DNA from: Oscillospiraceae bacterium
GTDB lineage: Bacteria; Bacillota; Clostridia; Oscillospirales; Oscillospiraceae
NCBI GenBank assembly: GCA_009777775.1
Contig: WRLE01000001.1
Location: 186,001-250,000 of the forward strand
Reading direction: 5' to 3'
Length of the DNA: 64,000 nucleotides
Position 1 is the first letter of the stretch. Each line of letters opens with the position of its first letter. Under the pieces are notes generated by a model that was not told the origin of the DNA, ran no database searches, and saw only the letters and a list, made by a program, of their open reading frames with translations. Below are positions 28,971 to 54,166 of the stretch, one piece after another. The translations under genes and the position numbers were made by a program.

Positions 28971-29056
28971 CAAGCCTACACAATCCCCCAATAGATGCAT
29001 TAAAAACGAAACACTCTACAAAAGGGAATAATATCAATCTCTCTAATGATAAAACC

Positions 29057-35832: not shown

Positions 35833-35843
35833 TATAATTCTCC

Positions 35844-36926: not shown

Positions 36927-37583
36927 GTGGCAGTGACACAACCTATAAGGAATAACGAAGACATAATCGCACTTACAAATTATTACCTCAATCTAAAACA
37001 GTATCGAAACCATGTGCTAATCGTTTTGTGTATCAATACCGCACTCCGCATTAGTGATATTTTGAGTTTGACTTGGGACGATGTTTATGACTTCAAAAGA
37101 GCTTGTTTTCGTAATAGCATCGATATTTTTGAGGGTAAAACCAAGAAATCTAAAATAATTGCTTTAAATCAGTCGGTCACCGATGCGCTAGAACAACTAG
37201 CTTTAGAGTTCTTGCATAGCGGTAATCCAATCATCATGAACAAGCGGACAGGATTCGCCATCAGCCGTGTTCATGCTTTTCGCATAGTTCGCTCAGCCGG
37301 TGAATTTATAGGGTTACCTTATCATATTTCTCCTCATTCTCTTCGTAAAACCTTGGGGTATCATTCATGGAAAAACAATGTTGGGGAATTGGTGTTATCC
37401 GAATTATTCAACCATAGCTCTACTGCAACAACTCGGAGGTATCTTGGTATAACCCAGGATGATTTAGATGCAGTACTGATGGGGCTTGACTATTCTGATT
37501 CAAATGTTAATAAATCAAAGAATAAAGAAGTAGAAAAAGAAATAACAATTAATCTAAACTGTGTGCTTGTGATGCTATTATGA
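36927..37583 (+). CDS. Tyrosine recombinase/integrase, catalytic domain only
   Basis: 218 residues starting at a GTG with GGAGG 8 bases upstream. It keeps the catalytic set: R41 (TALRISDIL), lysine in KTKKSK (71-75), H137 and R140 (PHSLRKT), H163 (FNHSST) and Y172 (TRRYLG). It has almost no N-terminal core-binding domain, so it belongs with short stand-alone recombinases rather than phage integrases. Neighbouring inverted repeats make a local DNA switch possible. The last ~25 residues after VNKSKNKE are hydrophobic and may be read-through into unrelated sequence. Confidence 0.88.
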   Translation: MAVTQPIRNNEDIIALTNYYLNLKQYRNHVLIVLCINTALRISDILSLTWDDVYDFKRACFRNSIDIFEGKTKKSKIIALNQSVTDALEQLALEFLHSGNPIIMNKRTGFAISRVHAFRIVRSAGEFIGLPYHISPHSLRKTLGYHSWKNNVGELVLSELFNHSSTATTRRYLGITQDDLDAVLMGLDYSDSNVNKSKNKEVEKEITINLNCVLVMLL

Positions 37584-37596
37584 TTGTGATAACCTG

Positions 37597-37618
37597 TGAT
37601 ATTGGAGTCAACTTATCA
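37597..37618 (+). repeat. 22-bp motif TGATA-N12-TATCA, copy 1
   Basis: TGATATTGGAGTCAAC then TTATCA, just after the recombinase stop. Two near-identical copies lie upstream of CPBP genes (40236 and 52505). The ends are inverted repeats. Confidence 0.55.
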
Positions 37619-39337: not shown

Positions 39338-40183
39338 TCATGATTCAATAAAAACCGGCACAGCTGCTGGTTGCTTTCGTAAGAGGAAACCACCGACAAG
39401 CGTAAAAACGACACCGACGATGATGATATACCATACTACGGTGTCTATGTTATCAACACCAATAAACTGAAGAGAAGCCGCAAAAAAGTTAAATGCCATA
39501 TGACCAACGATGCAGGGCCAGAGCTTCCTATATCGCAAGTACAGCAAGCCTAGTGCTATCCCTGCGATGCTAGCAGATACTATTTGTAAAGGGGCGATAT
39601 GAACTAAACCGAAAAGCAATGCTTGAACCACAACAGCTACACCAGGTTTCATCCATGACATGAGCCTGCTAAACACGAAACCTCGAAAACACATTTCTTC
39701 TACAATTGGTGCAGCAATCACAACAGAAATAAAATATACTAGATGGTTACCATCTAATGCATTACTTGTGTTGTACTGATCAGAAGTGAGTAGGTTAGAC
39801 AGCCCCGTTATACTTAGTAAAGTCGCAATTAAAACATTAATACCCATGAACAACATGAATACGCATAAAGCTAAGTTAAGTGGTTTCATCTTATGAACAT
39901 ATTGTGGAAGCTGCTCTTCTGTTTTTTCCCAATCTTTGCGTACACTTAAATAGTAAATGATTCCTGCAATAATATAAGATACATACAAAATGGTTTCCTG
40001 GAGATATAGTTGCCATATAGATGTTTTGTTATTTATATCAAGAAAAACATCGTATAATAAAACCGCAGCTGCACCTAACATAGCGGGGACAAATTGGCAG
40101 AGATAGTATGCGAATATTGGAGTAATAGAACGCCATACATTGCGAAAAATTGATTGTTTTTCTACCATTTCCATGTTCATCAT
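39338..40183 (-). CDS. CPBP (Abi) intramembrane metalloprotease, copy A
   Basis: 281 residues, about eight membrane segments. The CPBP motifs are complete: EEMCFRG (EExxxR), FGLVHIAPL (FxxxH) and GHMAFN (HxxxN). It ends with VGGFLLRKQPAAVPVF, a C-terminal pattern shared by the paralogues in this island. Two to three in-frame ATGs occur just after AAAGGAG (40183, 40180, 40174), so the exact start is uncertain. Related proteins provide bacteriocin immunity or process membrane proteins. Confidence 0.88.
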   Translation of the reverse strand: MMNMEMVEKQSIFRNVWRSITPIFAYYLCQFVPAMLGAAAVLLYDVFLDINNKTSIWQLYLQETILYVSYIIAGIIYYLSVRKDWEKTEEQLPQYVHKMKPLNLALCVFMLFMGINVLIATLLSITGLSNLLTSDQYNTSNALDGNHLVYFISVVIAAPIVEEMCFRGFVFSRLMSWMKPGVAVVVQALLFGLVHIAPLQIVSASIAGIALGLLYLRYRKLWPCIVGHMAFNFFAASLQFIGVDNIDTVVWYIIIVGVVFTLVGGFLLRKQPAAVPVFIES

Positions 40184-40235
40184 GCTCCTTTCATTTGTAA
40201 CACGAACTTATATTCATGCGCCTTTGATGCACCTT

Positions 40236-40257
40236 TGATATTGGAGTCAATTTATCA
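40236..40257 (+). repeat. 22-bp motif TGATA-N12-TATCA, copy 2
   Basis: Located 53 bases upstream of the copy A start codon. The similarity to the copy at 52505 continues toward the gene (a GGTGCATCAA-like stretch), so it is part of a duplicated 5' region. Confidence 0.55.
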
Positions 40258-40429
40258 GATTTTTTAGAGTTTGTCTACAGCAGTATTTAACTACTCACAT
40301 ATCTTCGTCAACAAATAATATGAACATATTGAAAAATAGAGCATTTCATCAAGAAATATGCATATTTGACAATAATGCTTTTACGATGATAATCTATGCA
40401 AAACTTTTTAAGTGCGGGAGCTGATAGAT

Positions 40430-41389
40430 TTGAGCAAATTGTCTTTGAGCGATTTTACTGATGGAATTATAGCTAGCCATGAAACAAGGTTCAACAAAGA
40501 GGAGAAAACGCAGTTTCTGGAATATGCAAAACAACGTTTTATGGATCTGGGTTACAACGATTCTGATATTTTAATACAGAAAAGTTTCTTCGGTGGACGA
40601 AACCTTATTATAGGATCACCCGATGCAAACATAATAATCACCGCTCATTACGATACACCAGCTCGTAATGGGCGTATTGCTCTGCCTTTTTTCAATATCT
40701 TCGGAATGAAACTGTCTTCTGTCCTGTCTCTTGTATATATGATTCCGCTTTTATATTTTTTACATTTGCCTAGTATCTTTGCTCAAAATTTCAGATTTGG
40801 TGTAGCAATCGAATTCTATATTAGAAACTTGTGGATATTTCTATTTCTAGCAGCTTTGATGCTTTTTAGGAACAAACACAACCACAACGACAATACCAGT
40901 GGTTGCGTTGGCGTGTATGGACTCGCAACGCTCATTTCGGAAAATCCAGAGTTGAAAAGCAAATGCGCTTTTATACTTTTCGACAATGAAGAAAAGGGTT
41001 TGTTTGGCTCAATTGCCTATGCAAGTTGGAGAAAAAGGAATTATCCAGGTAAATCAGACTTTCGTGTATATAACCTCGACTGTATCGGCGTTGGCGATAT
41101 ACTTCTCATTGCAGCAAAACAAAACTCTCCAGCTTGGAAGCTTCTTCCTGAGTTGTCAGAGTTTTTCGAAAGCTCGGGTATTAATACTGTTCACAGAACC
41201 AGCAATGTCTTTGGTTTCATGGGCGACCATGCAAGTTTCGATTGGGGTGTTGTTTTTACTTTTGTTAAAAACGCAAAGCTAACCGGTCTATATATACCGA
41301 ATATTCATACTTCGAAAGACACTGTGCTAAACATCGAACCAATTGAGTATCTATGCGCTACGATATTCACGTTTATCAGCGAGCAATAA
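40430..41389 (+). CDS. M28-family zinc peptidase with membrane segments
   Basis: Metal and catalytic motifs of M28 aminopeptidase-like proteins appear in order: IITAHYDTPA, NDNTSGCVG, ILFDNEEKGLFG, NLDCIGVGD and MGDHASFD. Between the first two motifs is a hydrophobic insert of ~60 residues (about 95-155) that would span the membrane twice. I prefer the TTG at 40430 (MSKLSLSDF, 319 aa), which has GGGAG 9 bases upstream, over the GTG at 40412. The only plus-strand gene among the CPBP copies. Substrate unknown. Confidence 0.82.
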   Translation: MSKLSLSDFTDGIIASHETRFNKEEKTQFLEYAKQRFMDLGYNDSDILIQKSFFGGRNLIIGSPDANIIITAHYDTPARNGRIALPFFNIFGMKLSSVLSLVYMIPLLYFLHLPSIFAQNFRFGVAIEFYIRNLWIFLFLAALMLFRNKHNHNDNTSGCVGVYGLATLISENPELKSKCAFILFDNEEKGLFGSIAYASWRKRNYPGKSDFRVYNLDCIGVGDILLIAAKQNSPAWKLLPELSEFFESSGINTVHRTSNVFGFMGDHASFDWGVVFTFVKNAKLTGLYIPNIHTSKDTVLNIEPIEYLCATIFTFISEQ

Positions 41390-41420
41390 TATAGCTGATA
41401 AAGCTGTACTAAGACAATAA

Positions 41421-41515
41421 GCTAGGCATATTTTGGTTTCATCCACGACATAATACGATTTTGAACAAAACCTCGGAAGCATATTTCTTCCACTATAGGT
41501 GCCAAAGTCATATTG
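41421..41515 (-). pseudogene. CPBP gene remnant: only the EExxxR region survives
   Basis: On the minus strand this stretch translates MTLAPIVEEICFRGFVQNR then IMSWMKPKYA and stops. That is the EExxxR helix of a CPBP protease, closest to copy A (APIVEEMCFRGF). Nothing of the rest of the gene is recognisable on either side. Confidence 0.8.
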
Positions 41516-41543
41516 AACGAAAAGGTTCTTTCTTATTACTTGT

Positions 41544-43037
41544 CTAATCGAATACACCAGTATCTATAATTGCACTGACAAGCTTTTCTATCACAGGAAT
41601 AGACACGCTGTTACCTATCAGCTTCATCCACTTTGACCTTGATTCGGGTAGATGGAAATCATCTGGAAAACCTTGTATCCTACACGCTTCAATTTTGGTG
41701 ATTTTTCTATAGTTACCCTTTAGGTACACCTTTTCGAGAAAACTTCGTTTATACTCTTCTTCGCCAGTTGCTGTTATTGAAACATTGGTAACATAGTCGT
41801 TCGTATCGCTGGCAACGAGAGTTGGAAAAATGCTCGAGCTTGGAAGAAAAATACGACTGACACCATATAAACCTGTGCTTATCTTGCGTTGTTTAAAATC
41901 GTAGCGAGTTTCGGAGCAACTAATTATCCCCTTTTGCTCTAACGATTCAATAGTTTCAGACAACTTTATTCTAGCTGACCTTATATCTCTATCCATAAGT
42001 AATATATCAGGTATAATTATACCTTTTTCGTGCTTTCCAAGGACAATTGTCTCTTCGGGTGTTATATTAGAGGAACAGTCTTGTACTATTTCATATGCAT
42101 AGTTCTCTTTTTTTAGAATCCCCATATTTGTTAAATCTTCGATTTCCTCAACGGTAATCTTTTTGTCAAAGAATTGGAAATGTTCAATGGACAAAGGATT
42201 TCCGTCTAGGGGTCCGAATTCTTTTTTTCGCCTGTTTTTTAGTAAAATTAGGCATATGTGCTTTTGTCGCTCGGTTGTTTCCATTATGTCCCATGAGTGG
42301 ATTGTTGTAGACCCGTTTCTTAAATCGTTGAATAGAAAGTAATCATTATGTCCATTGTTGTTTTTCGACAAGCTTGTATATTTTGATGTTGGGGTTGATA
42401 TATCACCAAACAAATTAGTAGTGGATTCCAAATCGTAGGGTTGCGGCATCTCAACGATTTCATCTTCGATTATGTCTGCTAACCTAATCTTTTCATTAGC
42501 TCCATCTGGTATTTTGAAAGCATCACCATAACGTTTATCAAAAAAGCCGATTATATATATCCTGACCCTACTTTGCGGTACTCCGTAATTATATGAGTTG
42601 AGCAAATAATGAGCAGCATTGTACCCCGCTTCTCTGATGCGCTCCATTATGAAGCGGAGAGAATCCTTGTTTCTAGGGTCTGCTAGTCCTTTTACATTTT
42701 CAAATATAAATGCTTTTGGCTTCGATTGGTTTAACAAATAGAGCGCGTCATTCCACAGTTGCCCACGATCATCATCGAACCCGAGGTTTTTCCCAGCTAT
42801 TGACCAGCTTTGGCATGGTACTCCAGCGGTTATTAAATCGTTTGGCGGCAAAGTTTTCAAAAGAGTTATATCACCGAGGTTTGTACCGATACTATCGGGG
42901 TAATTCAGTTCATATGTGTTTATAGCATCGTTATTTATTTCCGAATACGCTATCGTCCTGCCGCCACATTTATCGATTGCGCTACGAAACCCGCCGATTC
43001 CAGCAAATAAGTCAATTGCGGTAAATCTTTTTGACAT
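41544..43037 (-). CDS. C5 cytosine DNA methyltransferase
   Basis: 497 residues. Motif I is DLFAGIGGFRSA, motif IV carries the catalytic cysteine (GVPCQSWSIAG, C75), motif VI is FENVKGL, motif VIII QSRVRIYIIG, and the end has CRIQGFPDDF and IGNSVSIPV (IX and X). The ~180 residues between VIII and IX are the target recognition domain and may help predict specificity. ATG with TAGGAG upstream. No intact restriction enzyme lies next to it; a short ORF directly upstream may be a remnant. Confidence 0.94.
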   Translation of the reverse strand: MSKRFTAIDLFAGIGGFRSAIDKCGGRTIAYSEINNDAINTYELNYPDSIGTNLGDITLLKTLPPNDLITAGVPCQSWSIAGKNLGFDDDRGQLWNDALYLLNQSKPKAFIFENVKGLADPRNKDSLRFIMERIREAGYNAAHYLLNSYNYGVPQSRVRIYIIGFFDKRYGDAFKIPDGANEKIRLADIIEDEIVEMPQPYDLESTTNLFGDISTPTSKYTSLSKNNNGHNDYFLFNDLRNGSTTIHSWDIMETTERQKHICLILLKNRRKKEFGPLDGNPLSIEHFQFFDKKITVEEIEDLTNMGILKKENYAYEIVQDCSSNITPEETIVLGKHEKGIIIPDILLMDRDIRSARIKLSETIESLEQKGIISCSETRYDFKQRKISTGLYGVSRIFLPSSSIFPTLVASDTNDYVTNVSITATGEEEYKRSFLEKVYLKGNYRKITKIEACRIQGFPDDFHLPESRSKWMKLIGNSVSIPVIEKLVSAIIDTGVFD

Positions 43038-43046
43038 ATATAACTC

Positions 43047-43208
43047 CTATAGTATAAGGGCTACATACAACGGCTTTTGTGCATGGTGTTTTTCTGGAAT
43101 AAATGGATCATCGCTAAGGACTCTTTTCAATATTCTTTCCATCATGCTTTGTATTATATTACTAACTGCTTCTGTTACTGCACTGTTGGCATCAGTATTG
43201 TTATCCAT
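43047..43208 (-). CDS. 53-residue protein coupled to the methyltransferase; possible restriction enzyme remnant
   Basis: A short frame with a GGAGGAG site upstream encodes MDNNTDANSAVTEAVSN followed by an amphipathic helix and SDDPFIPEKHHAQKPLYVA. It stops 9 bases before the methyltransferase ATG and supplies that gene's ribosome site. The C-terminal half recalls the start of TdeIII-type type II restriction endonucleases from memory, so this may be the truncated 5' end of a lost partner nuclease. Alternatively it is a small independent regulator. Length is below that of any restriction enzyme. Confidence 0.5.
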   Translation of the reverse strand: MDNNTDANSAVTEAVSNIIQSMMERILKRVLSDDPFIPEKHHAQKPLYVALIL

Positions 43209-43330
43209 TCTGTTCTAGCTCCTCCTGTTATTCCATTGATTCTAGCACAAAAAGACAATAATTGCTATTATGAAAATTGAAACTGATTTTACGAAATAGC
43301 AAAAATGTTACTAGTCATAGGGCAACAATC

Positions 43331-43425
43331 CAGTGTCATTTAAGAGGACACCTGCGACCGAAGAATCTCAATAATCGGCAGTTTGGTGTAATGAGATTCT
43401 TCGTTGGTGCTCTTAAATGACACTG
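43331..43425. repeat. 95-base hairpin repeat with nested inverted repeats
   Basis: Outer arms CAGTGTCATTTAAGAG / CTCTTAAATGACACTG are a perfect 16-bp inverted repeat; inner arms CGAAGAATCTCA / TGAGATTCTTCG are a perfect 12-bp one. The sequence fits the dispersed TGTCAT..GCGAC.AAGAATCTC repeat family. No open frame inside. The remainder of the 43209-43559 gap shows no gene. Confidence 0.85.
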
Positions 43426-43559
43426 TTGGTGCGTACTATTTATAAGCTAACTAGCAATGCAAAAGATTCTAGCACCCCCGTGACCAGTGACGCTTGTACA
43501 TACATTTATTTATGAGTATTAAAGTGTCACCCTTATCAATACAAATATTATGAAATGCA

Positions 43560-44384
43560 TTAGCTATATATTATTTTAGCTGGTGGTTGATTAATTAAAA
43601 ACACTCCACCAACACCACTTAGGATGACTCCTATAATTAGTATATGGGTTAGTGTCATTTCATAATTACCTATTAAGGGTACAGAACTAACAAGAAAAGC
43701 AGGTAAATTCATTGCAGCATGAGCAATAACACATAGACCAGTGTTACGAAAACGTAAATATAGCGACCCTAAAACGATACCAAGTACGAATGAATATATT
43801 ATTTGAACAAAATGTATATGAATAATACCAAACAACACGGCTTGAATGAGTATTGCAATTTTTGGTTTTGTAATAGATAACAAATAATTTAGCATGAGCC
43901 CACGAAAGCACAATTCTTCTACTATTGGTGCATTAAGGATAGTAGAAACGAAATGGATAAATGCATAGTCAAAACTATATGACTTTATATATTCTTCATA
44001 TTCATAAAGCTCAGTTAATTTAGTTACTCTGATAGTGAAACTAACCAAAAGCATTAAGCCGAACGAAGTAATAGAAACAAGAAATCCTAAAACAATTTTA
44101 TTGTTATTATGTGTGTATAACGGACTTGTTTTTCGTATTTCTTTTATTTTCGATATATAATAAAACACATAAAGAATTATAAATGTTATGTCAGATATAG
44201 TATTAATTACAATTCTGGAATAAACAATAGAAGATGATTTCTCAGAAAAAAAAGCTTCAATTATTTTTTCAAATACTATTCGTATAATGTCTCCGAAAAA
44301 CTGAGATATTATACCGACTATTAAAAATGCAACTAATGGCTTGACTGTTAGCCAAACTTTGCTCCTCACGGTATAATTTGACAT
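43560..44384 (-). CDS. CPBP intramembrane metalloprotease, copy B
   Basis: 274 residues with about eight membrane helices. Motifs: APIVEELCFRGLML (EExxxR), FGIIHIHFVQ (FxxxH) and AHAAMN (HxxxN). More divergent than the other copies and richer in Ile/Lys/Tyr, but with the same C-terminal GVFLINQPPAK pattern. Likely an active protease or immunity protein. Confidence 0.88.
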   Translation of the reverse strand: MSNYTVRSKVWLTVKPLVAFLIVGIISQFFGDIIRIVFEKIIEAFFSEKSSSIVYSRIVINTISDITFIILYVFYYISKIKEIRKTSPLYTHNNNKIVLGFLVSITSFGLMLLVSFTIRVTKLTELYEYEEYIKSYSFDYAFIHFVSTILNAPIVEELCFRGLMLNYLLSITKPKIAILIQAVLFGIIHIHFVQIIYSFVLGIVLGSLYLRFRNTGLCVIAHAAMNLPAFLVSSVPLIGNYEMTLTHILIIGVILSGVGGVFLINQPPAKIIYS

Positions 44385-44513
44385 TTGATAATTCTCTCCA
44401 TTTTAAAAGAAGTGCAATTTAATAACTTCCTGTTTCATATCTGTTTACTCCGATAATACTATATTTAGTGGGAATTACCTTTTTATCAATATGAATATAC
44501 AATACATTTATAC

Positions 44514-44936
44514 TTATTCCACAGCATTTATTGATTTGCTCTTTACTTGATCATAATACATACTAAATTGTTGTGGTGATACAAGCAGTATTTTTTGTTT
44601 ATTGCTTTCTGTCCATACAATTTTGATTTTTTTATTGGAAAGTGATAAATAAGAAAATCCTTTTTCGGTAACACTTATTTCAATAATAGATTCATATGGT
44701 ACAAAATAGCTAAATACTCCAAAGAATTTTATGTAAATTCCACTTTCTTCAAGCTTTGTTATAGAACATAATATTAATATAAATAATGGAGAATAAAATA
44801 AAAATGTTATAACTAATACTATTGTTATGTTAGTTAGTGTTATACCAGTTCTATAAAAACATAAAACCCACGAAAAAAACAAAGGGAGTAGTATTGGTAT
44901 AATATATTTCGGCTCTATACGGTTACGGTAGACCAT
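44514..44936 (-). CDS. Small membrane protein with PH-like C-terminus
   Basis: 140 residues: two hydrophobic helices (about 10-27 and 35-60), then ESGIYIKFFGVFSYFVPYESIIEISVTEKG and KIKIVWTES, the strand pattern of a bacterial PH-like domain. Resembles in layout the membrane protein of the bacteriocin unit at 34547. Function unknown; lies between an intact and a broken CPBP copy. Confidence 0.55.
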   Translation of the reverse strand: MVYRNRIEPKYIIPILLPLFFSWVLCFYRTGITLTNITIVLVITFLFYSPLFILILCSITKLEESGIYIKFFGVFSYFVPYESIIEISVTEKGFSYLSLSNKKIKIVWTESNKQKILLVSPQQFSMYYDQVKSKSINAVE

Positions 44937-44984
44937 AAATCATCACCTTGTTATTAATACTCATCATCGGTGCATCAGTTAATA

Positions 44985-45483
44985 CTAGTGATATACATGG
45001 GATAGTAGTTGAGCTGTATTACTTGTTTCTTCTACAGTTATATCGTCAATAGGTTGAGCAGCTGGTTGCTTGAGTATAATATATGCTCCAATAAAGGAAA
45101 AAGCAGACCCTATGACAAAAATGTGTGTAAGGGTGATTTCGTCTACGACTAATTCAACCAGAGTTAGCAGCCACGAAGCCAGATTTGTATTAAAAACTGC
45201 GTGAGCTAAAATGCAGAGCCATAGTTTTCGGAAACGGACATAAAGCAAACCATACACTATACCGGAAAGAGCGGTATATAAAGCTTGGATTAGGTTCATA
45301 TGAAAAAGTCCAAAGATGATAGCTTGAACTAGAATTGCTACCCATGGCTTTGCCTATGTCATCAAGCGTCCATGTACGACACCGCGTAAACATAATTCCT
45401 CGGTAATTGGTGCGACAATAACAGCTGAGATAATAGCCGTGAATGCACTCCAATTGCTAAAGGTTTCTTTAAGGTGAGCGATT
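44985..45483 (-). pseudogene. CPBP pseudogene: 5'-truncated, nonsense-mutated mosaic
   Basis: Reading the minus strand, homology begins at about 45483 (AHLKETFSNWSAF..), continues through APITEELCLRGVV and RLMT, then hits TAG at the codon that is TGG in copy E (GACGTGGGC versus GACATAGGC, near 45356), and resumes in frame AKPWVAILVQAIIF to the end at 44985. The 5' part is nearly identical to copy E (49468-50322); after about 45300 it follows copy C (FVRFRKLW..AHAVFN..VVDEITLTH..LLSHVYH). The C-terminal 104 codons could still be translated from an internal ATG at 45299. Confidence 0.85.
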
Positions 45484-45484
45484 G

Positions 45485-46036
45485 CTATTTAGTTGCTGTA
45501 ACAGTTTTGCCATTATTTTTAACTTTGGTTGATGGTGACATTTTTATAAGTTTTATGAACACATAAATATCATCTAAAGAGCCACAAAAATTTGCAATGA
45601 ATAAAAGATACACAATGAAAGCCCATTTTATAGATGATGCTATGTGCAAACATATAAAGACTAGGCTTAAAAATATAACAGGGGTCATCGTTATTACCAG
45701 ATATGCGTTACGGTTAAAATAATTGCTACTACTCCAGGTACAATTATATATTCGAGACAGTTTAAATTTAACATTCTTACCTCGAAAGAATTTCATAATA
45801 ATAACATGAAGTAGTTCATGTACAATAATAAGCAAAAAGACTGCAATCATTAGATAAAACGATAAATTTTCCTTCTTATTAGGATTGTAGGTCTCTCTAA
45901 AACGTAGCGTATTGAATGGAAAAGTAATATGATATAAATATATTGCTAAGATAATGATGAGGATCTGTAATAAGTAAATCAAATACCTATGTATCCCCTT
46001 TACCTCATAATTAATAATACCAACTTCATTTTCCAT
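45485..46036 (-). CDS. DUF3267 putative zincin membrane protease
   Basis: 183 residues with four membrane segments. The HExxH zinc motif is HELLH (IIVHELLHVIIMKFF, near residue 72), and an N..GS..D motif (ANFCGSLDDIYVF) near 150 completes the DUF3267 pattern. The stop codon sits directly at the breakpoint with the CPBP pseudogene, so a recombination event may have ended here. Substrate unknown. Confidence 0.75.
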   Translation of the reverse strand: MENEVGIINYEVKGIHRYLIYLLQILIIILAIYLYHITFPFNTLRFRETYNPNKKENLSFYLMIAVFLLIIVHELLHVIIMKFFRGKNVKFKLSRIYNCTWSSSNYFNRNAYLVITMTPVIFLSLVFICLHIASSIKWAFIVYLLFIANFCGSLDDIYVFIKLIKMSPSTKVKNNGKTVTATK

Positions 46037-46183
46037 GTCTACCCCTTCTTAATTATTGGTGATAATTATATTGTTTATCTATGGTGTAGGTGTAACTGCA
46101 CAGCTGTGGTAGATTTAATTGAATGAATCCGCCGACACAACTCCGTATTTGTCTTTGGTGTAATATTATAGGGTCTTTTATTA

Positions 46184-46585
46184 CTACAAACTAAAGAGTT
46201 CCGCAATTTCTGTATACTCACCTTTGATAATGTTTTTCCATTTTTGAGTTTCATTTGGTGGGGATATATCATTTTTAGAGTACACAAGGAGTATTTTCAC
46301 TTCTCGCATATCTTCGTCAACAAACAATATGCATCTATTTCCAGATGCCTTTGGCGACATACGAGTACCATCAACGGCAAAATCAAGCTTAACTAATTTA
46401 TAACAACCGGAGATCGATATGAGATCAGCGCGGTTATATAGCAACATATTATCTATACGTTCACAGACCGCAATGATTGTTCGCTCAGTTGCCAGCCATT
46501 TGTCTTTGTATGTTTTATAAAACTTATTGATATAGTGTCGTTCTGTAAAAGACTCAAATTGAACTCTATAATTGAATTGGTCCAT
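46184..46585 (-). CDS. Putative toxin paired with a Panacea-domain antitoxin
   Basis: 133 residues. The N-terminus overlaps the upstream antitoxin gene by 20 bases. Sequence: FTERHYINKFYKTYKDKWLA, then a mid-region, then DEDMREVKILLVYSKNDISPPNETQKWKNII, which looks like a RelE/HigB-type fold ending in a helix. Panacea antitoxins are known to pair with many unrelated toxins, so linkage is the main argument. Activity and target cannot be told by reading. Confidence 0.6.
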   Translation of the reverse strand: MDQFNYRVQFESFTERHYINKFYKTYKDKWLATERTIIAVCERIDNMLLYNRADLISISGCYKLVKLDFAVDGTRMSPKASGNRCILFVDEDMREVKILLVYSKNDISPPNETQKWKNIIKGEYTEIAELFSL

Positions 46586-47285
46586 ATACGCGCTCTGGCT
46601 CCTCTTGAGTAATAAGGCTGTATGGAATTATTTCACCATCTCTGCAGATTTGCCATGGAAGCTGCTCATGTGTGAAGTTCACAATATCATCAGTAGACTT
46701 TCCACTCCATGCTTTACCAATCTTTTCAATAAGATTAAGCTCATCATTTGTCAATCTACTAGCGGGAGCTTCCTTCTCTATTAGTGAAAACAAGATAGCC
46801 TTTCCCTTTGGTTCGCGAATTATGGTTCCGTCATCTTCCAATTCGTCCAGTGCGCGAAAATATACATCTGCAACTGGTCCGCGTTGTAATTTACGATAAG
46901 TCATGCCAGACATTGGTGAGGAGTTCAGATAATACCATATGAAATCTGCTAAATATACTAGCTTAGCAAGTTTCGTTTTCGTAATTTTTCCATCATCGTC
47001 AGCTCCATGTTTGAGAGCGTTTAGAATCATCTGTTTATACTTTTCGGTGGATTTAATAATATCAGAGAATGCCGATGTACCATCAGCTATGCCTAATATG
47101 TCATCAAAACTAATACGCAGCATAGAAGATAGAGCTTCTGCTTGACGAATGGTGAGGTCTTTTTTACCAGCCTCGATGTTTATATAGGTGGGACGGCTAA
47201 CACCTATTGCATGGGCTACTTGCTCCTGTGTATAGCCACGAGCCAAACGAGCTTGTTCAATATTATTTGAAAAGTTCCTATTCAT
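46566..47285 (-). CDS. HTH plus Panacea (DUF4065/SocA-like) antitoxin
   Basis: 239 residues from the ATG at 47285 (AAGGGA about 8 bases upstream; the frame reaches back to 47327). An Xre-type helix-turn-helix (ARLARGYTQEQVAHAIGVSRPTYINIE) is followed by the Panacea domain: KLAKLVYLADFIWYYLNSSPMSGMTYRKLQRGPVADVY. This fusion is the usual type II antitoxin with a Panacea domain, which both represses the operon and neutralises the toxin encoded downstream. Confidence 0.85.
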   Translation of the reverse strand: MNRNFSNNIEQARLARGYTQEQVAHAIGVSRPTYINIEAGKKDLTIRQAEALSSMLRISFDDILGIADGTSAFSDIIKSTEKYKQMILNALKHGADDDGKITKTKLAKLVYLADFIWYYLNSSPMSGMTYRKLQRGPVADVYFRALDELEDDGTIIREPKGKAILFSLIEKEAPASRLTNDELNLIEKIGKAWSGKSTDDIVNFTHEQLPWQICRDGEIIPYSLITQEEPERVYGPIQL

Positions 47286-47315
47286 GATTATATTCCCTTC
47301 TGATTTGCTAAAACT

Positions 47316-47344
47316 ATTATAGCACACCTACACAAACAAATCAA
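47316..47344 (-). promoter_or_regulatory. Promoter of the Panacea toxin-antitoxin pair
   Basis: Minus strand: TTGATT, 17 bases, TATAAT, about 30 bases before the antitoxin ATG. The spacer carries a GTGTAGGTGTGC repeat-like run that could bind the antitoxin's HTH. Confidence 0.65.
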
Positions 47345-47538
47345 CATCGCATGTTAAAAATATTTACAAATACGAACCTCATGATTGACATGGGTGGCAT
47401 TGGGAGTATTAATTTACGAATAAGCATGTATTACGATGGCGATGAATGAAATGATAAATTTATAATCAATAAGTGATATAATGATATGCCCTTGAAATAA
47501 GGGCATATTTCTATCTGTCATGGGTACATCAGTTCATT

Positions 47539-48426
47539 TTAGTGATATGCATGGGACAGCAATTGATATACATCATTGAGTTCTTCTTCAATAGCTTCAT
47601 CAACTGCTTGAGCGGCTGGTTGCTTTAGTAAAATAAATGCTCCAATAATGAAGAAAATAGACCCAATTATTAAAATGTGTGTGAGTGTGATTTCATCGAC
47701 TACATACGATATCATTTTAATTATCCAATCAGCCAAATACGAATTAAAAACCGCATGGGCTAAAATACAGGGCCATAATTTGCGAAAGCGGACATAAAGC
47801 ATTCCATAAATAATACCAGAAAGTCCAGCGTATAAAGCCTGAATAGGATTCATGTGGATAATACCAAAGATAATGCTCTGGAGCAGAACAGCAGACCTGG
47901 GCTTCATAAATGTCATCAAACGGTTTTGTATAACACCGCGACACAATAGTTCTTCCACTATTGGAGCAACAATTACAGCTCTCACAAACATTTCTAATGT
48001 ACTTCTATTGTGAAAAGCTTCGATAACAGGCAAATATGTTGGATGCTCCGATAAATAAGTCACATGAAGGAAATAACTAGTTAAAAACTTTATACCGCAG
48101 TAAATGATTATAGTGCCAATAGCAAGTATTAAGGGTTTATCTTTATTTATTTGTATAGGCAGCTGCTCTTTCGCTTCTTTCCACATAGGAGTTAGAATAT
48201 ATACGCTGAGTAGTATACAAGCGACAGATGAAATGAGCATACCAATAGTTCCTTGGATAAAAGCATCACTAGATAGTATATCAGTATCAGTAAACGCTCC
48301 AAATAAAGTATTTGTGAGCATATTAATAAACATACCGACAATTTCAGCAAAGTTTTTAATAAAATAGAAAATGATAATTGGAATAATCACATACCAAAAT
48401 TTTCGAGGAATGCTTTGCTTTACCAT
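47539..48426 (-). CDS. CPBP intramembrane metalloprotease, copy C
   Basis: 295 residues, about eight membrane helices. Motifs: APIVEELLCRGVIQ (EExxxR, with Cys before Arg), FGIIHMNPIQ (FxxxH) and AHAVFN (HxxxN). The C-terminus ends in LLSHAYH, a tail also seen in the pseudogene at 44985 and as a fragment near 51513. Start ATG has AAAGGAGC about 8 bases upstream. Divergent spacing to the Panacea operon is 250 bases. Confidence 0.9.
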   Translation of the reverse strand: MVKQSIPRKFWYVIIPIIIFYFIKNFAEIVGMFINMLTNTLFGAFTDTDILSSDAFIQGTIGMLISSVACILLSVYILTPMWKEAKEQLPIQINKDKPLILAIGTIIIYCGIKFLTSYFLHVTYLSEHPTYLPVIEAFHNRSTLEMFVRAVIVAPIVEELLCRGVIQNRLMTFMKPRSAVLLQSIIFGIIHMNPIQALYAGLSGIIYGMLYVRFRKLWPCILAHAVFNSYLADWIIKMISYVVDEITLTHILIIGSIFFIIGAFILLKQPAAQAVDEAIEEELNDVYQLLSHAYH

Positions 48427-48486
48427 ATCGATAATGCTCCTTTCTTTCTAGATGTGTATATGAACAGATATTGATAATAAGCATTC

Positions 48487-49368
48487 TTACTTACCAGATG
48501 AAACGCTAAGTGGCTGGTAGTTGATATGTGTAAATACACGTTTACTTGAATCAAATAAAGGTACCGATGCAGGTTGTTTTAGCAAGAAAAATCCGCCAAT
48601 GACAGTGAGTGCCATCCCGATAACGAGGACAGGTACAGGTGTGATTTTAATTTGCATGATTTGTGCAAACTCATGTGAAAACCCAACAAGATTAAAAGCC
48701 ATATGTCCAATTATACAGGGCCAGAGTTTTTTATATCGCAAATATAATAAGCCAAGTGCGAGACCGGCGATGCTTGCGGCAAGTATATGCAATGGGTCGA
48801 GATGAAGTACACCAAATATAATAGCTTGTATAAACAAAGCTATTCCAGGCTTCAACCATGACATGAGCCTGTTGAATACGAAACCTCTTAAACATAATTC
48901 CTCCATAATGGGTCCAACTAGCACAGAAGCGACAAAATACAGTATCGGGTTGCCATATAACATGGAATTAAAGCTGTACTTATCGGAAGCCAGCTTATCA
49001 GTAAGCCCTGATAAATAAAGAAATGACCAAATGAGAATATTTAACCCTATATATGTGAAAAAAACGCAGATTCCAAGATTTAGGGTTCTCGCCTTGTGCA
49101 CATACCTTGGTTGATGTGCTTCGTAATTTTTCCAATCTTGGCGAACATTTACATAATACATAATATCAGCTAACATGGGAGTTATTGAGAAGATGGTTCC
49201 TCCAATGTACATTTGCCATATTGATGATTTATTGCTTATCTCGTATATTAAATTGTATATAAAAACTATAGAAACTCCAAAAATAATCATTACTAACTGA
49301 CATAATGAATATGCAAATATCGGGGTAAGAGAACACCATAGGTTTCGAGGTAGAGATTGTTTTTGCAT
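48487..49368 (-). CDS. CPBP intramembrane metalloprotease, copy D
   Basis: 293 residues. Motifs: GPIMEELCLRGFVF (EExxxR), FGVLHLDPLH (FxxxH) and GHMAFN (HxxxN). Nearly the same protein as copy G (51587-52468), including the C-terminus (SSKRVFTHINYQPL) and the 3' flanking sequence, so a recent tandem duplication is evident. Unlike copy G it keeps the motif-2 histidine (codon CAT at 48802-48804). Confidence 0.9.
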   Translation of the reverse strand: MQKQSLPRNLWCSLTPIFAYSLCQLVMIIFGVSIVFIYNLIYEISNKSSIWQMYIGGTIFSITPMLADIMYYVNVRQDWKNYEAHQPRYVHKARTLNLGICVFFTYIGLNILIWSFLYLSGLTDKLASDKYSFNSMLYGNPILYFVASVLVGPIMEELCLRGFVFNRLMSWLKPGIALFIQAIIFGVLHLDPLHILAASIAGLALGLLYLRYKKLWPCIIGHMAFNLVGFSHEFAQIMQIKITPVPVLVIGMALTVIGGFFLLKQPASVPLFDSSKRVFTHINYQPLSVSSGK

Positions 49369-49467
49369 TATTTTACTCCTTTCGCTTATACTAGTGGTCT
49401 ATTCTCGAAATACCTGTACAAACCTTGCAACATAGCATTCTTGTTTTGTTAATATTTAGTTTAATGA

Positions 49468-50322
49468 CTACGGCTCTTTTATCGGATCTTTCACATTAAC
49501 ATAAATTGGCACAGCTGCTGGAAGCATCAACAACAAAAATCCACCTAATAAGGTTAATACTATACCGAAGACTAAATAATGAAGGTTTGTAAACTCCTCA
49601 ATGAACCTTGATAAGAAGAGAAGGAAAAAATGCGATGTGCTAAAATTAAACACCATATGAGCGAGGATACAAGGCCATAATTTTCGGAATCTATAATATA
49701 ATATACCCAGAAAAATTCCAGCGAAAAACGCATATGAAGCTTGGATTAGGTTCATATGAATAATTGCAAAGATGATAGCTTGTACTAAAATTGCTACCCA
49801 TGGCTTTGCCCACGTCATCAAGCGTCCTTGTACGACACCGCGTAAACATAATTCCTCGGTAATTGGTGCGATGATAACAGCTGATATAATAGCCTTGAAT
49901 GCACTCCAACTGCTAAAGGTTTCTTTAAGGTGGGCATACGAAGAGTGGTCACGCAATCCAGTCACAGTCATATATTGGTTGGTGAGTAAGTCTATTCCAC
50001 TGAACATGATAATCGTCGTAATAGCTATTAGAATAGCATTATTCTTTAACAGTTTTGTTGGAGCTTGCTCTTTTGTTTCTTTCCACATTGGTATGAAAAC
50101 GAATTTGCATAATAATAGAATTATTATTGACTGTATAACAGTTGGTACGTTTCCGTACAATGTTGTAGAAAAATCGAATGATTCTACATCAGCTGAATTT
50201 ATTGCATTTAATATAATTTGAAAAAGCCCAGCAATCCCATATGCCATATGATTGAGTGTAATTAGCACTATTGGTGGAAAAATAATACCAATGATTTTTT
50301 CATATGTGGTAGTATTATCCAT
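49468..50322 (-). CDS. CPBP intramembrane metalloprotease, copy E
   Basis: 284 residues. Motifs: APITEELCLRGVVQ (EExxxR), FAIIHMNLIQ (FxxxH) and AHMVFN (HxxxN). Its central part is almost identical in DNA to the 5' half of the pseudogene at 44985-45483, marking it as a donor or sister of that copy. C-terminus LLLMLPAAVPIYV fits the island pattern. Confidence 0.9.
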   Translation of the reverse strand: MDNTTTYEKIIGIIFPPIVLITLNHMAYGIAGLFQIILNAINSADVESFDFSTTLYGNVPTVIQSIIILLLCKFVFIPMWKETKEQAPTKLLKNNAILIAITTIIMFSGIDLLTNQYMTVTGLRDHSSYAHLKETFSSWSAFKAIISAVIIAPITEELCLRGVVQGRLMTWAKPWVAILVQAIIFAIIHMNLIQASYAFFAGIFLGILYYRFRKLWPCILAHMVFNFSTSHFFLLFLSRFIEEFTNLHYLVFGIVLTLLGGFLLLMLPAAVPIYVNVKDPIKEP

Positions 50323-50475
50323 ATCTCTCCTCCTCTTCTAAATATACAACTATTTCTTTTACTGAAAGCAAAATGATTGCTTACTCAGGTGCAAATCAGC
50401 TTGTGTTGCACTGTCATCACGCGATTAAATCTATCATGATGCAAATTCAAAGTCAATGTGCAATTGTAAATATTT

Positions 50476-50511
50476 GTGGTAAACAATCAATAATTGTAGA
50501 TTGTTTACCAC
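50476..50511. promoter_or_regulatory. Perfect 13-bp hairpin after CPBP copy F
   Basis: GTGGTAAACAATC / GATTGTTTACCAC with a 10-base loop, 9 bases beyond the copy F stop. No T-run on either side, so it is a weak terminator candidate or a protein site. Confidence 0.45.
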
Positions 50512-50519
50512 TTGCTGAT

Positions 50520-51401
50520 TTATTTTTCTGTAATGCATTCTGTGTCCTCGTCATCTTGTAGGTCATGTGGGATTTGAACTGGGGTTGCTTTGGGTTGCTT
50601 AATTAATAGGTAGCTGCTGATTATGGTCAGTCCTATAAATAGTAATAGAATTACCATTGAGCCTGTTGGGGAAATACTTTCTTGAATGTCATTAGGTATT
50701 ATTCGCATTACTACAGCTAAAAAGTTGGCTGCTATATGCGCTAGAATACAAAACCAAAGCTTTCGAAAGCGATAATATAACAAACCTATGGCAAATCCGA
50801 GTAGAAATGCGTATATCCCTTGGACTAGGTTCAGGTGAATAATACCGAAGACAGCTGCTTGATATATTATCGCAATCCAAGGCTTCGTCCAGGACAAGAG
50901 CCTGTTGAAGATGATACCACGAAAACATAATTCTTCAACGATGGGAGCAACAATGACAGTTACTATAAAAAGTTCAATGATTGTCATCTTGCCGATTAAT
51001 TCTCTGAAAGCATCATATGATGAATGCTCATTTAATCTAAGCATTGTCATTGCTATATTAAGTAGCAGACTAATACTGAAAAATGAAACAAAGATAAGAG
51101 TAGCAGTTATAATAGGCTTGTTTTCGCCAATTTCAAATAGAGTGCTACTTGCTGCTTCTTTCCATTTTGGAGTGAATCGATAAATTGCTAAAACAAGTTG
51201 TATAATAGCAGATATTGTTATATATACCAAATCAAATACAATTGCACTCCTAAAGCTTGTACTCGCACCCGCTTCAATAATTGATATATGTATAAATTTT
51301 GCCAAGCTTACAACAAAAATCGCAACAATCTGGTATAAAAAATAACCGAGCATAGGAGTAATTGTTTTCCATATACTTTTAAATATCGATTCTTTTTTCA
51401 T
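50520..51401 (-). CDS. CPBP intramembrane metalloprotease, copy F
   Basis: 293 residues. Motifs: APIVEELCFRGIIF (EExxxR), FGIIHLNLVQ (FxxxH) and AHIAAN (HxxxN). C-terminus SSYLLIKQPKATPVQIPH keeps the KQPxAxP pattern of its neighbours. Most different from D and G, so the array mixes old and recent duplicates. AGGTTCG upstream of the ATG is a modest ribosome site. Confidence 0.89.
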   Translation of the reverse strand: MKKESIFKSIWKTITPMLGYFLYQIVAIFVVSLAKFIHISIIEAGASTSFRSAIVFDLVYITISAIIQLVLAIYRFTPKWKEAASSTLFEIGENKPIITATLIFVSFFSISLLLNIAMTMLRLNEHSSYDAFRELIGKMTIIELFIVTVIVAPIVEELCFRGIIFNRLLSWTKPWIAIIYQAAVFGIIHLNLVQGIYAFLLGFAIGLLYYRFRKLWFCILAHIAANFLAVVMRIIPNDIQESISPTGSMVILLLFIGLTIISSYLLIKQPKATPVQIPHDLQDDEDTECITEK

Positions 51402-51424
51402 TTAAAAACGAACCTCCATTAGTA

Positions 51425-51552
51425 TAATTCCTCCATTATGGATCCTACTAACACAGAAGTAATAATAATGGAATTTAGACAAAGTGCAAAATTCTTGTGA
51501 CTCGTCTGGTGTGCATCAGTTCATTTAATGATATGCATGGGACAGTAGTTGA
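51425..51552 (-). pseudogene. Two short CPBP remnants upstream of copy F
   Basis: 51425-51459 repeats, with changes, the stretch around the EExxxR motif of copy G (AATTCCTCCATAATGG type). 51513-51552 repeats the 3' end of copy C (47527-47566). At 51552 the sequence switches to the 3' flank shared by copies D and G. These are leftovers of deleted or recombined copies. Confidence 0.65.
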
Positions 51553-51586
51553 TGTGTATATGAATAGATAATGATAATAAGTATAC

Positions 51587-52468
51587 TTACTTACCAGATG
51601 AAACGCTAAGTGGCTGGTAGTTGATATGTGTAAATACACGTTTACTTGAATCAAATAAAGGTACTGATGCAGGTTGTTTTAGCAAGAAAAATCCGCCAAT
51701 GACAGTAAGTGCCATCCCAATAGTGAGGATAGGTACAGGTGTGATTCTAATTTGCATGATTTGTGCAAACTCATGTGAAAATCCAACAAGATTAAATGCC
51801 ATATGTCCAATTATACAGGGCCAGAGTTTTCTATATCGCAAATACAATAAGCCTAGTGCAAGACCAGCGATGATTGCGGCAAGTATATGTAATGGGTCGA
51901 GAAAAAGTAAACCAAATATAATAGCTTGTACAAACAAAGCTATTCCAGGCTTTAACCATGACATAAGCCTGTTGAAAACGAAACCCCTTAAGCATAATTC
52001 CTCCATAATGGGTCCTACTAGCACAGAAGCGACAAAATATACTATAGGGTTACCATATAACATGGAATTAAAGCTGTACTTTTCAGAAGCTAATTTCATA
52101 GTAAGTCCTGATATGTTGAGAAAAGACCAAAGTAACATATTTATCCCAATATACGTAAAAAAAACGCAAATAGTTAGAGTTGCTGCTTTAATTTTGTGCA
52201 CATACCTTGGTTGCTGCGCTTCATAATTTATCCAATCTTGGCGTACACTCATATAATATATGATATCAGCTAAAAGAAGAGTCACGCTGAATATGGTTCC
52301 CCCGATATATGATTGCCATATTGATGATTTATTGCTAGTTTCGTAAAAAAAATCGTATAAAAACACAACAGCAACACTGAATACAATCAGTATAATATGA
52401 CAGAAAAAGTACGCAAATATCGGGGTAAGAGAATGCCATATCTTCCGAGGTAGAGATTGTTTTTGCAT
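51587..52468 (-). CDS. CPBP family protein, copy G, lacking the motif-2 histidine
   Basis: 293 residues from the ATG at 52468 (AAAGG 9 bases upstream; the frame extends to 52504, but this start aligns with copy D). Motif 1 is intact (GPIMEELCLRGFVF) and motif 3 is intact (GHMAFN), but motif 2 reads FGLLFLDPLH: the codon at 51902-51904 is TTT (Phe) where copy D has CAT (His). Since that His is thought to bind metal or act in catalysis in CPBP proteases, this copy may be a non-proteolytic variant. Otherwise almost the same as copy D. Confidence 0.88.
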   Translation of the reverse strand: MQKQSLPRKIWHSLTPIFAYFFCHIILIVFSVAVVFLYDFFYETSNKSSIWQSYIGGTIFSVTLLLADIIYYMSVRQDWINYEAQQPRYVHKIKAATLTICVFFTYIGINMLLWSFLNISGLTMKLASEKYSFNSMLYGNPIVYFVASVLVGPIMEELCLRGFVFNRLMSWLKPGIALFVQAIIFGLLFLDPLHILAAIIAGLALGLLYLRYRKLWPCIIGHMAFNLVGFSHEFAQIMQIRITPVPILTIGMALTVIGGFFLLKQPASVPLFDSSKRVFTHINYQPLSVSSGK

Positions 52469-52504
52469 TTCATTAAACCTTTCCATATGCCATTGATGCA
52501 CCAT

Positions 52505-52526
52505 TGATATTGGAGTTAATCTATCA
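52505..52526 (+). repeat. 22-bp motif TGATA-N12-TATCA, copy 3
   Basis: Sits 36 bases upstream of the copy G start codon, at a similar place as the copy before CPBP copy A. Confidence 0.55.
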
Positions 52527-52626: not shown

Positions 52627-52720
52627 GTCGCAATGCTGCTCGCTATGACACGGGAGTGAGGTCGCAATGCTGCTCGCAATGACACGGGAGTGAGGTCGCA
52701 ATGCTGCTCGCAATGACACT
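52627..52720 (+). repeat. Three tandem 34-base repeats (GTCGCAATGCTGCTCGC type)
   Basis: Units start at 52627, 52661 and 52695; units 1 and 2 differ by one base, unit 3 is cut short. The opposite strand reads TGTCATTGCGAGCAGCA.., a widespread dispersed repeat. No spacers, so not CRISPR. The rest of the 52527-52784 gap holds no gene. Confidence 0.85.
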
Positions 52721-52865: not shown

Positions 52866-53276
52866 ATGCCTGATAAATATTATTTGATGTCTAAAGATAC
52901 TGGGAGTGGTCCCCATCTTATTGGACAACTGAGCCGTTTGGGAAAAGGCGAATACGAGTTTAAGTACCTTATAAATGCAACTGCCTTCCCCCATTGGTTT
53001 ATGCAAATACCCAGACTGCCTGACATCACTAAGACATATAGAAGCCAGGAGGTTCTGTATTATATCTTATATAGAGTCGTCCCAGAGTCAGATGAATGGG
53101 CGGCTGAAGTGCTTATGAATGAATATGGTCTAAAAAACTATGATGAATGGACAATTCTGGAACTGCTCATTAACCAACATTTAATTGATAAGATGGATGG
53201 CCAACCCCTGAGTGATTCACAGCAACTCTTTTATTTTTACAGCGAAATTCCCAGCAATGCGCATACATACAACTAG
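52866..53276 (+). CDS. HipS-like protein (HipA N-terminal subdomain)
   Basis: 136 residues. HLIGQLSRLGKGEYEFKYL and the following FMQIPRLPD segment match the N-terminal subdomain of HipA kinases (the G.L.....YxFxY and lPl pattern), and the rest (DEWAAEVLMNEYGLKNYDEWTILELL) corresponds to the helix after it. In HipBST systems this subdomain is a separate protein, HipS, that acts as antitoxin for the kinase HipT. GGAGG precedes the ATG. The HipA-like C-part is encoded 44 bases downstream. No HipB-type HTH gene is present. Confidence 0.65.
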   Translation: MPDKYYLMSKDTGSGPHLIGQLSRLGKGEYEFKYLINATAFPHWFMQIPRLPDITKTYRSQEVLYYILYRVVPESDEWAAEVLMNEYGLKNYDEWTILELLINQHLIDKMDGQPLSDSQQLFYFYSEIPSNAHTYN

Positions 53277-53320
53277 CTTACTAAAATACTTTATATAAAC
53301 ATAAATAGGAGATGTCAATA

Positions 53321-54166
53321 ATGAATTGGTGGGACGATGAAGACTGGATAGACCCGGACGAATGGACCGCTACTGTCGTCGAGGTAGTGGGAACGACATA
53401 CAGCATGTTTTGGGTCACAAATAAAAAAACCAAGGAAAGAGGACTTTTTAAGCCAGAAAGCAATTGGCGAAGGTCCGCTTTCAACGAATATGCTGCATCA
53501 AAAATTGGCAACTGTTTAGGTGTACCTTGTGCTAGGCTACTGGTGGGTAATGTTTTTGGCGGCGGTGGCTGCATCAGCATGGATGTTCGTCAAGGCTATA
53601 GCGAGCGCATATTATCTGGAGAGAGCCTTGGCAGAGTGGGTAGCTTGCTCAACTATGAAAAGTCAAAAGATGGAAAGCCTGTTTATGATATGCCCAGAGA
53701 AATGTCCTTTGAAGGACTACTCCCCTTTTTACCAAAAGAAGCCGAGCTTGGCATGGTTAAAATGATGTTTTTCGATTCCATAATCAGAAATGCTGGTAGA
53801 CATGGAAGCAACTTCTCCTTTGCCATTGACGACAATAGGGCTATAACCGCCTTTTTACCCCTTTATGACCAAGGCAACGCAGTTTTGGAAGATACCTCAT
53901 CCTCAGACTACGGCGGTAGAGGTGGCAGAGGTGGCAGAGGTGGCTGGGGCAGGCGTCGCGGCTCTGCATTTCCTTATTATGGACATGGCGGAATGCACAG
54001 ACCTTTTCCCTTAGAGGAACTAAACAAATGTATCAAGCGAGACTATCCCGATTTGGTTAGGGAGCTTGTTGCAAAAACGAGAACTGAAGAATTTAGAACA
54101 ATCACCACTCGCCTAGACTGTTATGAATTGATGATGGACAGAGTAAACGAGTTTATTAATCAATAA
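53321..54166 (+). CDS. HipA/HipT-like kinase fold with degraded catalytic loop and RGG insert
   Basis: 281 residues from the ATG at 53321 (ATAGGAG 9 bases upstream). The ATP lysine region is ERGLFKPESN (K44) with the helix EYAASKIGNCLGVPCARL; the catalytic loop reads IIRNAGRHGSNFSF (157-164) where HipA has NTDRHxxNF, so the catalytic aspartate is Gly159; the metal-binding DxG-like motif is LPLYDQGNA (D183). Residues 198-213 are a Gly/Arg run (GGRGGRGGRGGWGRRRG) like an RGG box. Possibly a pseudokinase or RNA-binding variant. Works with the HipS-like protein in front. Confidence 0.7.
   Translation: MNWWDDEDWIDPDEWTATVVEVVGTTYSMFWVTNKKTKERGLFKPESNWRRSAFNEYAASKIGNCLGVPCARLLVGNVFGGGGCISMDVRQGYSERILSGESLGRVGSLLNYEKSKDGKPVYDMPREMSFEGLLPFLPKEAELGMVKMMFFDSIIRNAGRHGSNFSFAIDDNRAITAFLPLYDQGNAVLEDTSSSDYGGRGGRGGRGGWGRRRGSAFPYYGHGGMHRPFPLEELNKCIKRDYPDLVRELVAKTRTEEFRTITTRLDCYELMMDRVNEFINQ

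Follow-up and report, generated by a model that had tools for sequence, protein, structure and literature searches.

The window analysed here, a 64,000-nucleotide stretch of contig WRLE01000001.1 from an Oscillospiraceae bacterium (assembly GCA_009777775.1), carries on its minus strand, at 39338..52468, an array of seven genes of the CPBP (Abi, type II CAAX-like) membrane protease family, here named A to G. We observed that the seven proteins form a single clade, that the array bears marks of duplication and recombination, and that it lies in a genomic island together with a two-peptide bacteriocin operon. We tentatively propose that it is kept as protection against peptide bacteriocins.

A sequence-only reading of the window had described these seven genes, and all seven frames indeed proved to be open exactly where it placed them (Table 1). 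That reading had also seen the motifs EExxxR, FxxxH and HxxxN/D in the set: EExxxR and HxxxN are present in all seven proteins, but FxxxH is found in six of them only, G having Phe in place of the His. In an alignment of 25 proteins, this residue is missing from G alone, and because the catalytic His is replaced, G is probably not active as a protease. The seven proteins can be aligned along their full length and have 5-7 hydrophobic segments each by simple hydropathy, which fits a multi-pass membrane protein. Searched against PDB sequences, the array profile gave no match at E ≤ 0.01.

To place the array among its relatives, we built a quick tree from 57 of the 123 proteins collected, that is the seven array members and the best 50 of the 116 others; before that, rows longer than 420 amino acids (aa), duplicate rows and six extracts from the contig of the window itself had been set aside, and no bootstrap was run. 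A to G fall on one side of a branch with a support of 98 in the SH-like approximate likelihood ratio test (SH-aLRT), so that the family descends from a single founder. The nearest protein outside the array (support 94) is encoded by the sole CPBP gene found on the contig of an Oscillospiraceae metagenome-assembled genome (L011). Inside the array, A, D and G group together (99), as do C and E (84), and B splits off first. Alignment and tree of the seven had been set beforehand as a check, and the single clade rules out that the copies are scattered members of unrelated CPBP subfamilies. Identity between array members goes down to 27% at the amino acid level; it is 13-69% in the N-terminal half and 42-93% in the core. 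Assembly collapse was considered as a source of the array and rejected, since 20 of the 21 pairs are at most 65% identical in DNA and the remaining one, D-G, 86%.

The comparison of D with G is informative about how such copies change. Before alignment nucleotide 414 the two genes differ at 95 of 387 sites, after it at 30 of 492; at third positions, the differences amount to 53/129 on the left of this breakpoint and 19/164 on the right. Not one of 2000 shuffles reached the observed value, either for all sites or for third positions. This pattern fits a homogenisation of the catalytic half by gene conversion or exchange, the N-terminal half having diverged. The nonsynonymous rate (dN) is lower than the synonymous rate (dS) in all 16 of the 21 array pairs for which dS could be computed, saturation having prevented this in the other five; for D-G we obtained dN 0.10 and dS 0.39, and for the other computable pairs dN 0.35-0.86 and dS 1.20-3.03. 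The copies thus look maintained.

The array region also contains debris of further copies. At least two remnants had been claimed and we count more, at least four (P1, P2, R3 and R4), besides an orphan promoter-like element. P1 is a chimera: in 60-nucleotide (nt) windows it is first 85-95% identical to E, then 62-80% identical to C, with the switch near 45300. By tblastn against A to G, the best match of P2 is A (77% over 26 aa). R3 is 84% identical to G over 58 nt and 89% to D over 36 nt; it directly precedes the start codon of F, and this stretch, which includes the ribosome-binding site, apparently derives from the codons for the EE motif in a D/G-type copy that was deleted. Because a scar of a C-type tail follows G (R4) and a D/G-type piece precedes F (R3), a block running from D to C was probably duplicated and later trimmed. 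The single clade, the D-G breakpoint, the chimeric P1 and the deletion scars together bear out the earlier proposal that the family is diversifying by duplication and recombination.

The same 22-nt promoter-like element stands upstream of A, upstream of G and, as an orphan, outside the array. It is expected 0.02 times in the window at up to 3 mismatches, and we found three sites in the bacterium's own genome and none in 18 genomes of the genus (at most 2 mismatches). We disregarded a further match, with 3 mismatches, inside the coding part of the methyltransferase gene. The orphan may be a vestige of an array copy that has disappeared. At 52627-52719, upstream of G, we also noted 25-nt direct repeats (96%) with a unit of the GTCATTGCGAGCAGCATTGCGA type.

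CPBP genes themselves are common. PF02517, the family's Pfam model, has matches in 384 of the 395 genomes of the order (requested completeness 90%) and 0-4 in each of the other 18 genomes of the genus; within the family, the array profile finds matches at E ≤ 1e-10 in 105 genomes out of 300, this one included, and never more than three in any other genome (best 8 candidates per genome scored). Among the best 12 candidates per genome, this genome and one other, G612, reached 12 PF02517 matches, the next ones having 10, 8 and 7. When all candidates were counted, both had 13. In this genome all 13 are above the cut-off (22.4 bits, the Pfam gathering score) and correspond to the seven intact array genes, P1 with its in-frame TAG, the short remnant P2 and four genes elsewhere. 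G612 was rejected as a similar array, its copies being scattered. None of the 11 other genomes with at least six copies, among the 395 of the order, has three of them within 13 kb, and their copies are never closer than 3.9 kb to each other. The earlier judgement that this many copies in one place is not ordinary therefore holds within this sample, where such an array was seen here alone.

The array region and the bacteriocin operon are an insertion between rplS and a rhomboid gene (Table 1), absent from all 14 relatives examined. In the genus, these two flanking genes are adjacent in 14 of the 14 relatives that have ylqF and the rhomboid gene on one contig, with a gap of 43-2716 nt (at most 530 nt in 13 of them); four further relatives are outside this count, either because the genes are split between contigs or because no ylqF was detected. 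Twelve of the 14 show lepB, rplS and rhomboid in the same order as the flanks of the window, and the other two, G003 and G005, have the rplS-rhomboid pair inverted with respect to lepB. The GC content is about 46% over the exporter part of the island and 30-39% over most of the rest; in the flanks, it is 39-45% at 1-29 kb, 39-42% at 53-60 kb and 34-37% at 60-64 kb. In view of this unevenness, the island is itself a mosaic. There is no tRNA gene within the window, hence no tRNA target at the island, and the sole recombinase seen in it is the one tied to the switch described below.

The two-peptide bacteriocin operon with a C39 exporter, also proposed from the sequence, is real, and the start of its peptide 1 gene (36080) lies 3.26 kb from the end of A. 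With its GG-leader peptides, C39 ABC exporter and adaptor, it is an operon of the class II type. A sigma-A-like site, TAGACA-N17-TATAAA, was seen by eye right upstream of peptide 1. Homologues of the exporter occur in G010 (72% identical) and G015 (71%), and in the loci L152 and L153 the genes adjoining the exporter homologue resemble, by eye, radical-SAM peptide maturation genes; this exporter type may therefore handle peptides of more than one kind.

A putative invertible switch, which the sequence-only reading had not mentioned, separates the first gene on the operon side from a tyrosine recombinase gene; its two repeats are 93% complementary. We compared 11 homologues of the recombinase from the genus. 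Inverted repeats are present just upstream of the gene in all five that are at least 50% identical (L158-L161 and L167) and absent there in four at 45-47% identity (L163, L164, L166 and L168); L162 and L165 are cut off upstream, and L165 has one weak repeat downstream. Shuffled controls for these repeats, ten per stretch, preserved base content alone. A dyad, ATGTAAC-N13-TGTTACAT, occurs at 12 sites in 7 of 19 genomes, 10 of the 12 within 1 kb of such a recombinase, and the reversed-pattern control matched once across the 19 genomes. We infer that the switch is active as a DNA-inversion element. By eye, the neighbours of the recombinase in relatives are large secreted-looking proteins, kinase-like clusters and solute-binding-protein-like genes, and here the bacteriocin operon; distant relatives of the enzyme (below 60% identity) occur in 163 phage records.

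The best sigma-70-like site in the invertible segment is no better than shuffled sequence (202 of 300 shuffles as good), and none in the segments of five relatives is above chance. Since there is no segment promoter above chance and a sigma-A-like site precedes peptide 1, the switch may govern just the first gene. In G013 (L166, L177) and G015 (L164, L175), we further noticed inverted dyad sites flanking the recombinase gene itself (8999-9562 in L177, turned orientation; 4729-5319 in L175), near solute-binding-protein-like genes; these flanked genes are possible self-inverting switches.

According to the sequence-only reading, the array had only toxin-antitoxin, methyltransferase and protease genes for neighbours. 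This was wrong: a bacterial-PH-domain protein, a small membrane protein, the tyrosine recombinase and a HipA-like gene are there as well. Inside the array, at 46184-47327, a gene for a helix-turn-helix (HTH) protein with a SocA/Panacea domain overlaps that of a 133-aa partner without family match, possibly a toxin-antitoxin pair. The HipA-like gene, with a small partner, stands at the right end of the island (52866-54166); its Pfam match is under the cut-off and it better matches the PADLOC candidate defence model PDC-M03A.

Table 1. Positions in the window of the CPBP array, its remnants and promoter-like elements, the bacteriocin operon, the switch and the island.
Feature	Coordinates	Strand	Evidence and remarks
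Genomic island, 25.2 kb	29057-54283	.	between rplS (28381-29037) and rhomboid gene (54284-55165)
HlyD-like adaptor	30683-32221	-	named by position and look of sequence; homologues beside exporter homologues in L152, L153
C39 peptidase ABC exporter	32218-34407	-	PF03412 137 bits, PF00664, PF00005
233-aa protein in operon, three hydrophobic segments	34547-35248	-	hydropathy; no family match
107-aa protein, two hydrophobic segments	35337-35660	-	candidate immunity protein by position and hydropathy; no Pfam/NCBIfam match
GG-leader peptide 2, bacteriocin	35665-35844	-	LLSIEGG; PF10439 (Bacteriocin_IIc) 29.6 bits, cut-off 27.1
GG-leader peptide 1, putative bacteriocin component	35844-36080	-	LLVNGG by sequence; no Pfam match over cut-off
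First gene on bacteriocin side of switch	36173-36646	-	homologue precedes exporter homologue in G015 (L153, 6.1e-29)
Putative invertible switch	36686-36859	.	28-nt inverted repeats 36686-36713 / 36832-36859, 118 nt between
Tyrosine recombinase, candidate invertase	36927-37583	+	PF00589 77.6 bits; tyrosine-type DNA invertase models below cut-off
Promoter-like element, orphan	37597-37618	-	same 22-nt element as before A and G
CPBP gene A	39338-40183	-	281 aa; PF02517 83.4 bits; motifs
Promoter-like element (22 nt) upstream of A	40236-40257	-	TGATADRTTNACTCCAATATCA, 0 mismatches
P2, CPBP motif-region remnant	41344-41523	-	PF02517 26 bits
CPBP gene B	43560-44384	-	274 aa; PF02517 match; most divergent member, first to branch in array clade
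P1, truncated chimeric CPBP pseudogene	44985-45480	-	in-frame TAG; 5' part E-like, 3' part C-like
CPBP gene C	47539-48426	-	295 aa; PF02517 86.1 bits
CPBP gene D	48487-49368	-	293 aa; PF02517 match and motifs; 83% aa identity to G
CPBP gene E	49468-50322	-	284 aa; PF02517 match and motifs
CPBP gene F	50520-51401	-	293 aa; PF02517 match and motifs
R3, D/G-type motif remnant abutting start codon of F	51402-51459	-	sequence identity to G and D
R4, leftover C-type 3' tail downstream of G	about 51511-51559	-	89% to C tail, 84% to P1 tail
CPBP gene G	51587-52468	-	293 aa; frame opens at 52504; His of FxxxH replaced by Phe
Promoter-like element upstream of G	52505-52526	-	same 22-nt element as before A

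As to the role of the array, protection against peptide bacteriocins appears to us the likeliest explanation, by analogy with SkkI, PlnI and PlnL and with the pneumococcal blp locus, even if we would put it at somewhat less than an even chance. The family would have grown in place through tandem and block duplication, each copy encountering a hydrophobic peptide within the bilayer, as a membrane protease or a membrane-embedded binder, and having its specificity set by the variable N-terminal half. Protection would most likely be directed against several incoming bacteriocins, perhaps also against the island's own two peptides. Since the array is apparently served by promoters of its own and lies outside the putatively invertible operon, it could protect cells in which the operon is off. 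G would either work through binding or represent a copy in decay.

In favour of this role, the array and the operon for GG-leader peptides and their C39 exporter are in the same island. Several observations weigh against it. The nearest CPBP gene is 3.26 kb from the peptide 1 gene, with the recombinase and a toxin-antitoxin pair in between, and within 3 mismatches the bacteriocin operon has no copy of the 22-nt array element; from their place in the operon and their hydropathy, its own two membrane proteins, of 107 and 233 aa, would be better placed as dedicated immunity proteins. In 136 CPBP loci (40 shorter than 4 kb and 79 of at least 9 kb, some overlapping, six from this genome), we detected no homologue of the C39 domain or of HlyD at E ≤ 0.01, although the C39 query is able to pick up the exporters of L152-L156, at identities as low as about 30%. 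Conversely, the array profile finds no CPBP gene around the exporter homologues of G010 and G015, in 20 kb each and a 10-kb contig of G015. Four single-copy CPBP genes of the genus, as well as L125 and L126, sit by eye in ordinary contexts, the genus copies next to alanine dehydrogenase, ispE, pheT or tsf/rpsB-like genes. In addition, dN/dS gives no sign of positive selection in the 16 computable array pairs, and G lacks the catalytic His. Of the former proposal of an amplified immunity set, the amplification is thus supported, but the bacteriocin link is not, no tie having been found beyond the common island.

The ordinary contexts of the single-copy relatives would also suit a mostly non-adaptive history, with the duplication of a housekeeping-type CPBP gene in a low-GC island rich in repeats, followed by birth and death of copies without any specific new role. 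The presence of at least four remnants, the inactive-looking G and the occurrence of the array in one genome only among those examined point the same way. However, seven long intact frames, dN below dS in 16 of 16 computable pairs and identities down to 27% suggest a long retention under constraint, and we regard the non-adaptive history as rather unlikely.

Another explanation is that the copies are processing or signalling proteases comparable to SilX, SagE and MroQ, which would cut or liberate exported peptides or regulate sensor proteins of the membrane, their number reflecting several substrates. SilX, a CAAX protease of the Sil/Angicin locus of Streptococcus anginosus, is likewise a CPBP protease beside a bacteriocin locus and is reported not to be an immunity protein, which also counts against a protective role here: it is needed for bacteriocin activity, probably through the processing of a signal peptide, and its deletion abolishes this activity, which is rescued by the mature signal peptide, without causing sensitivity (PMC9298176). 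Moreover, the MroQ model matches D and G below its cut-off, as other models of processing CPBP proteins do for D, G and B. On the other hand, the GG-leader peptides are already served by the C39 peptidase, a Pfam scan of 20 window proteins showed no histidine kinase (though it did show the HTH/Panacea protein), and a G without catalytic His suits a processing enzyme poorly. We hold this explanation to be unlikely.

Finally, the array could be an anti-phage set, in line with the abortive-infection sense of the old name Abi, within a defence island. Its neighbours include a C5 methyltransferase that matches the PADLOC type II methyltransferase models, RelB/YafQ genes and the SocA/Panacea protein. 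Yet A and D, the two CPBP proteins scanned, have no PADLOC match, and D has no match in 72,556 plasmid records and one weak relative in a viral contig collection, so that we consider this role very improbable. On these plasmid and viral results, a phage or plasmid origin of the CPBP genes was discarded.

Protection against bacteriocins can be extended to the island as a whole, which would then be a module of peptide warfare: the toxin would be flipped by DNA inversion and immunity uncoupled from it, in the form of a constitutive, recombining CPBP array, with swappable N-terminal halves for specificity and a catalytic half in common, that shields switched-off siblings and, as it evolves, defends against the bacteriocins of rivals. 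We find this bolder picture distinctly doubtful. If the operon is truly inverted on and off, the locus also raises the question of how the switched-off cells of a clone escape being killed by their siblings. More generally, CPBP genes recur at bacteriocin loci, where they may act in immunity, in processing or otherwise. A seven-member, recombining set of single origin offers a natural series for asking which copy acts against which peptide and what the N-terminal half does.

The putative switch resembles described invertons in having inverted repeats around a short segment beside a recombinase gene (PMC11892184). As described there, one largely clostridial inverton group is linked to tyrosine recombinases, and invertons are often near cell-surface genes, whereas the switch described here adjoins a bacteriocin operon. 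The word bacteriocin is absent from the main text of that paper, and among the titles and abstract openings surveyed, none reports a phase-variable or invertible bacteriocin locus.

As regards the array, the self-immunity proteins SkkI, PlnI and PlnL, proposed to degrade their bacteriocins, belong by name to the same Abi/CPBP superfamily according to PMC8538875; at the level of description, each of them protects against its cognate bacteriocin, whereas no cognate pairing is seen here. In the pneumococcal blp locus, likewise with several CPBP genes beside bacteriocin genes, the CAAX genes blpG, blpY and pncP are counted as putative immunity genes and the set varies between strains (PMC4860687). 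These are of three kinds and are activated by the regulator of the locus, whereas here we have seven paralogues of single origin and no link to bacteriocin regulation was seen. A single CPBP gene lying in a hot spot of recombination has also been described (PMC7593597). Tandem CPBP clusters at bacteriocin loci are already known: plnTUVW, four CPBP (Abi) genes in tandem in the secretion operon plnGHTUVW/plnGHSTUVW of Lactobacillus plantarum, have a role called unknown in PMC4467070. With CPBP genes in tandem and an ABC exporter that processes GG leaders, both at a bacteriocin locus, plnTUVW is the closest anatomical parallel that we found. It differs, as far as descriptions can be compared, in being inside the exporter operon, whereas the seven genes reported here stand apart from theirs, in an island, with remnants and signs of gene conversion.

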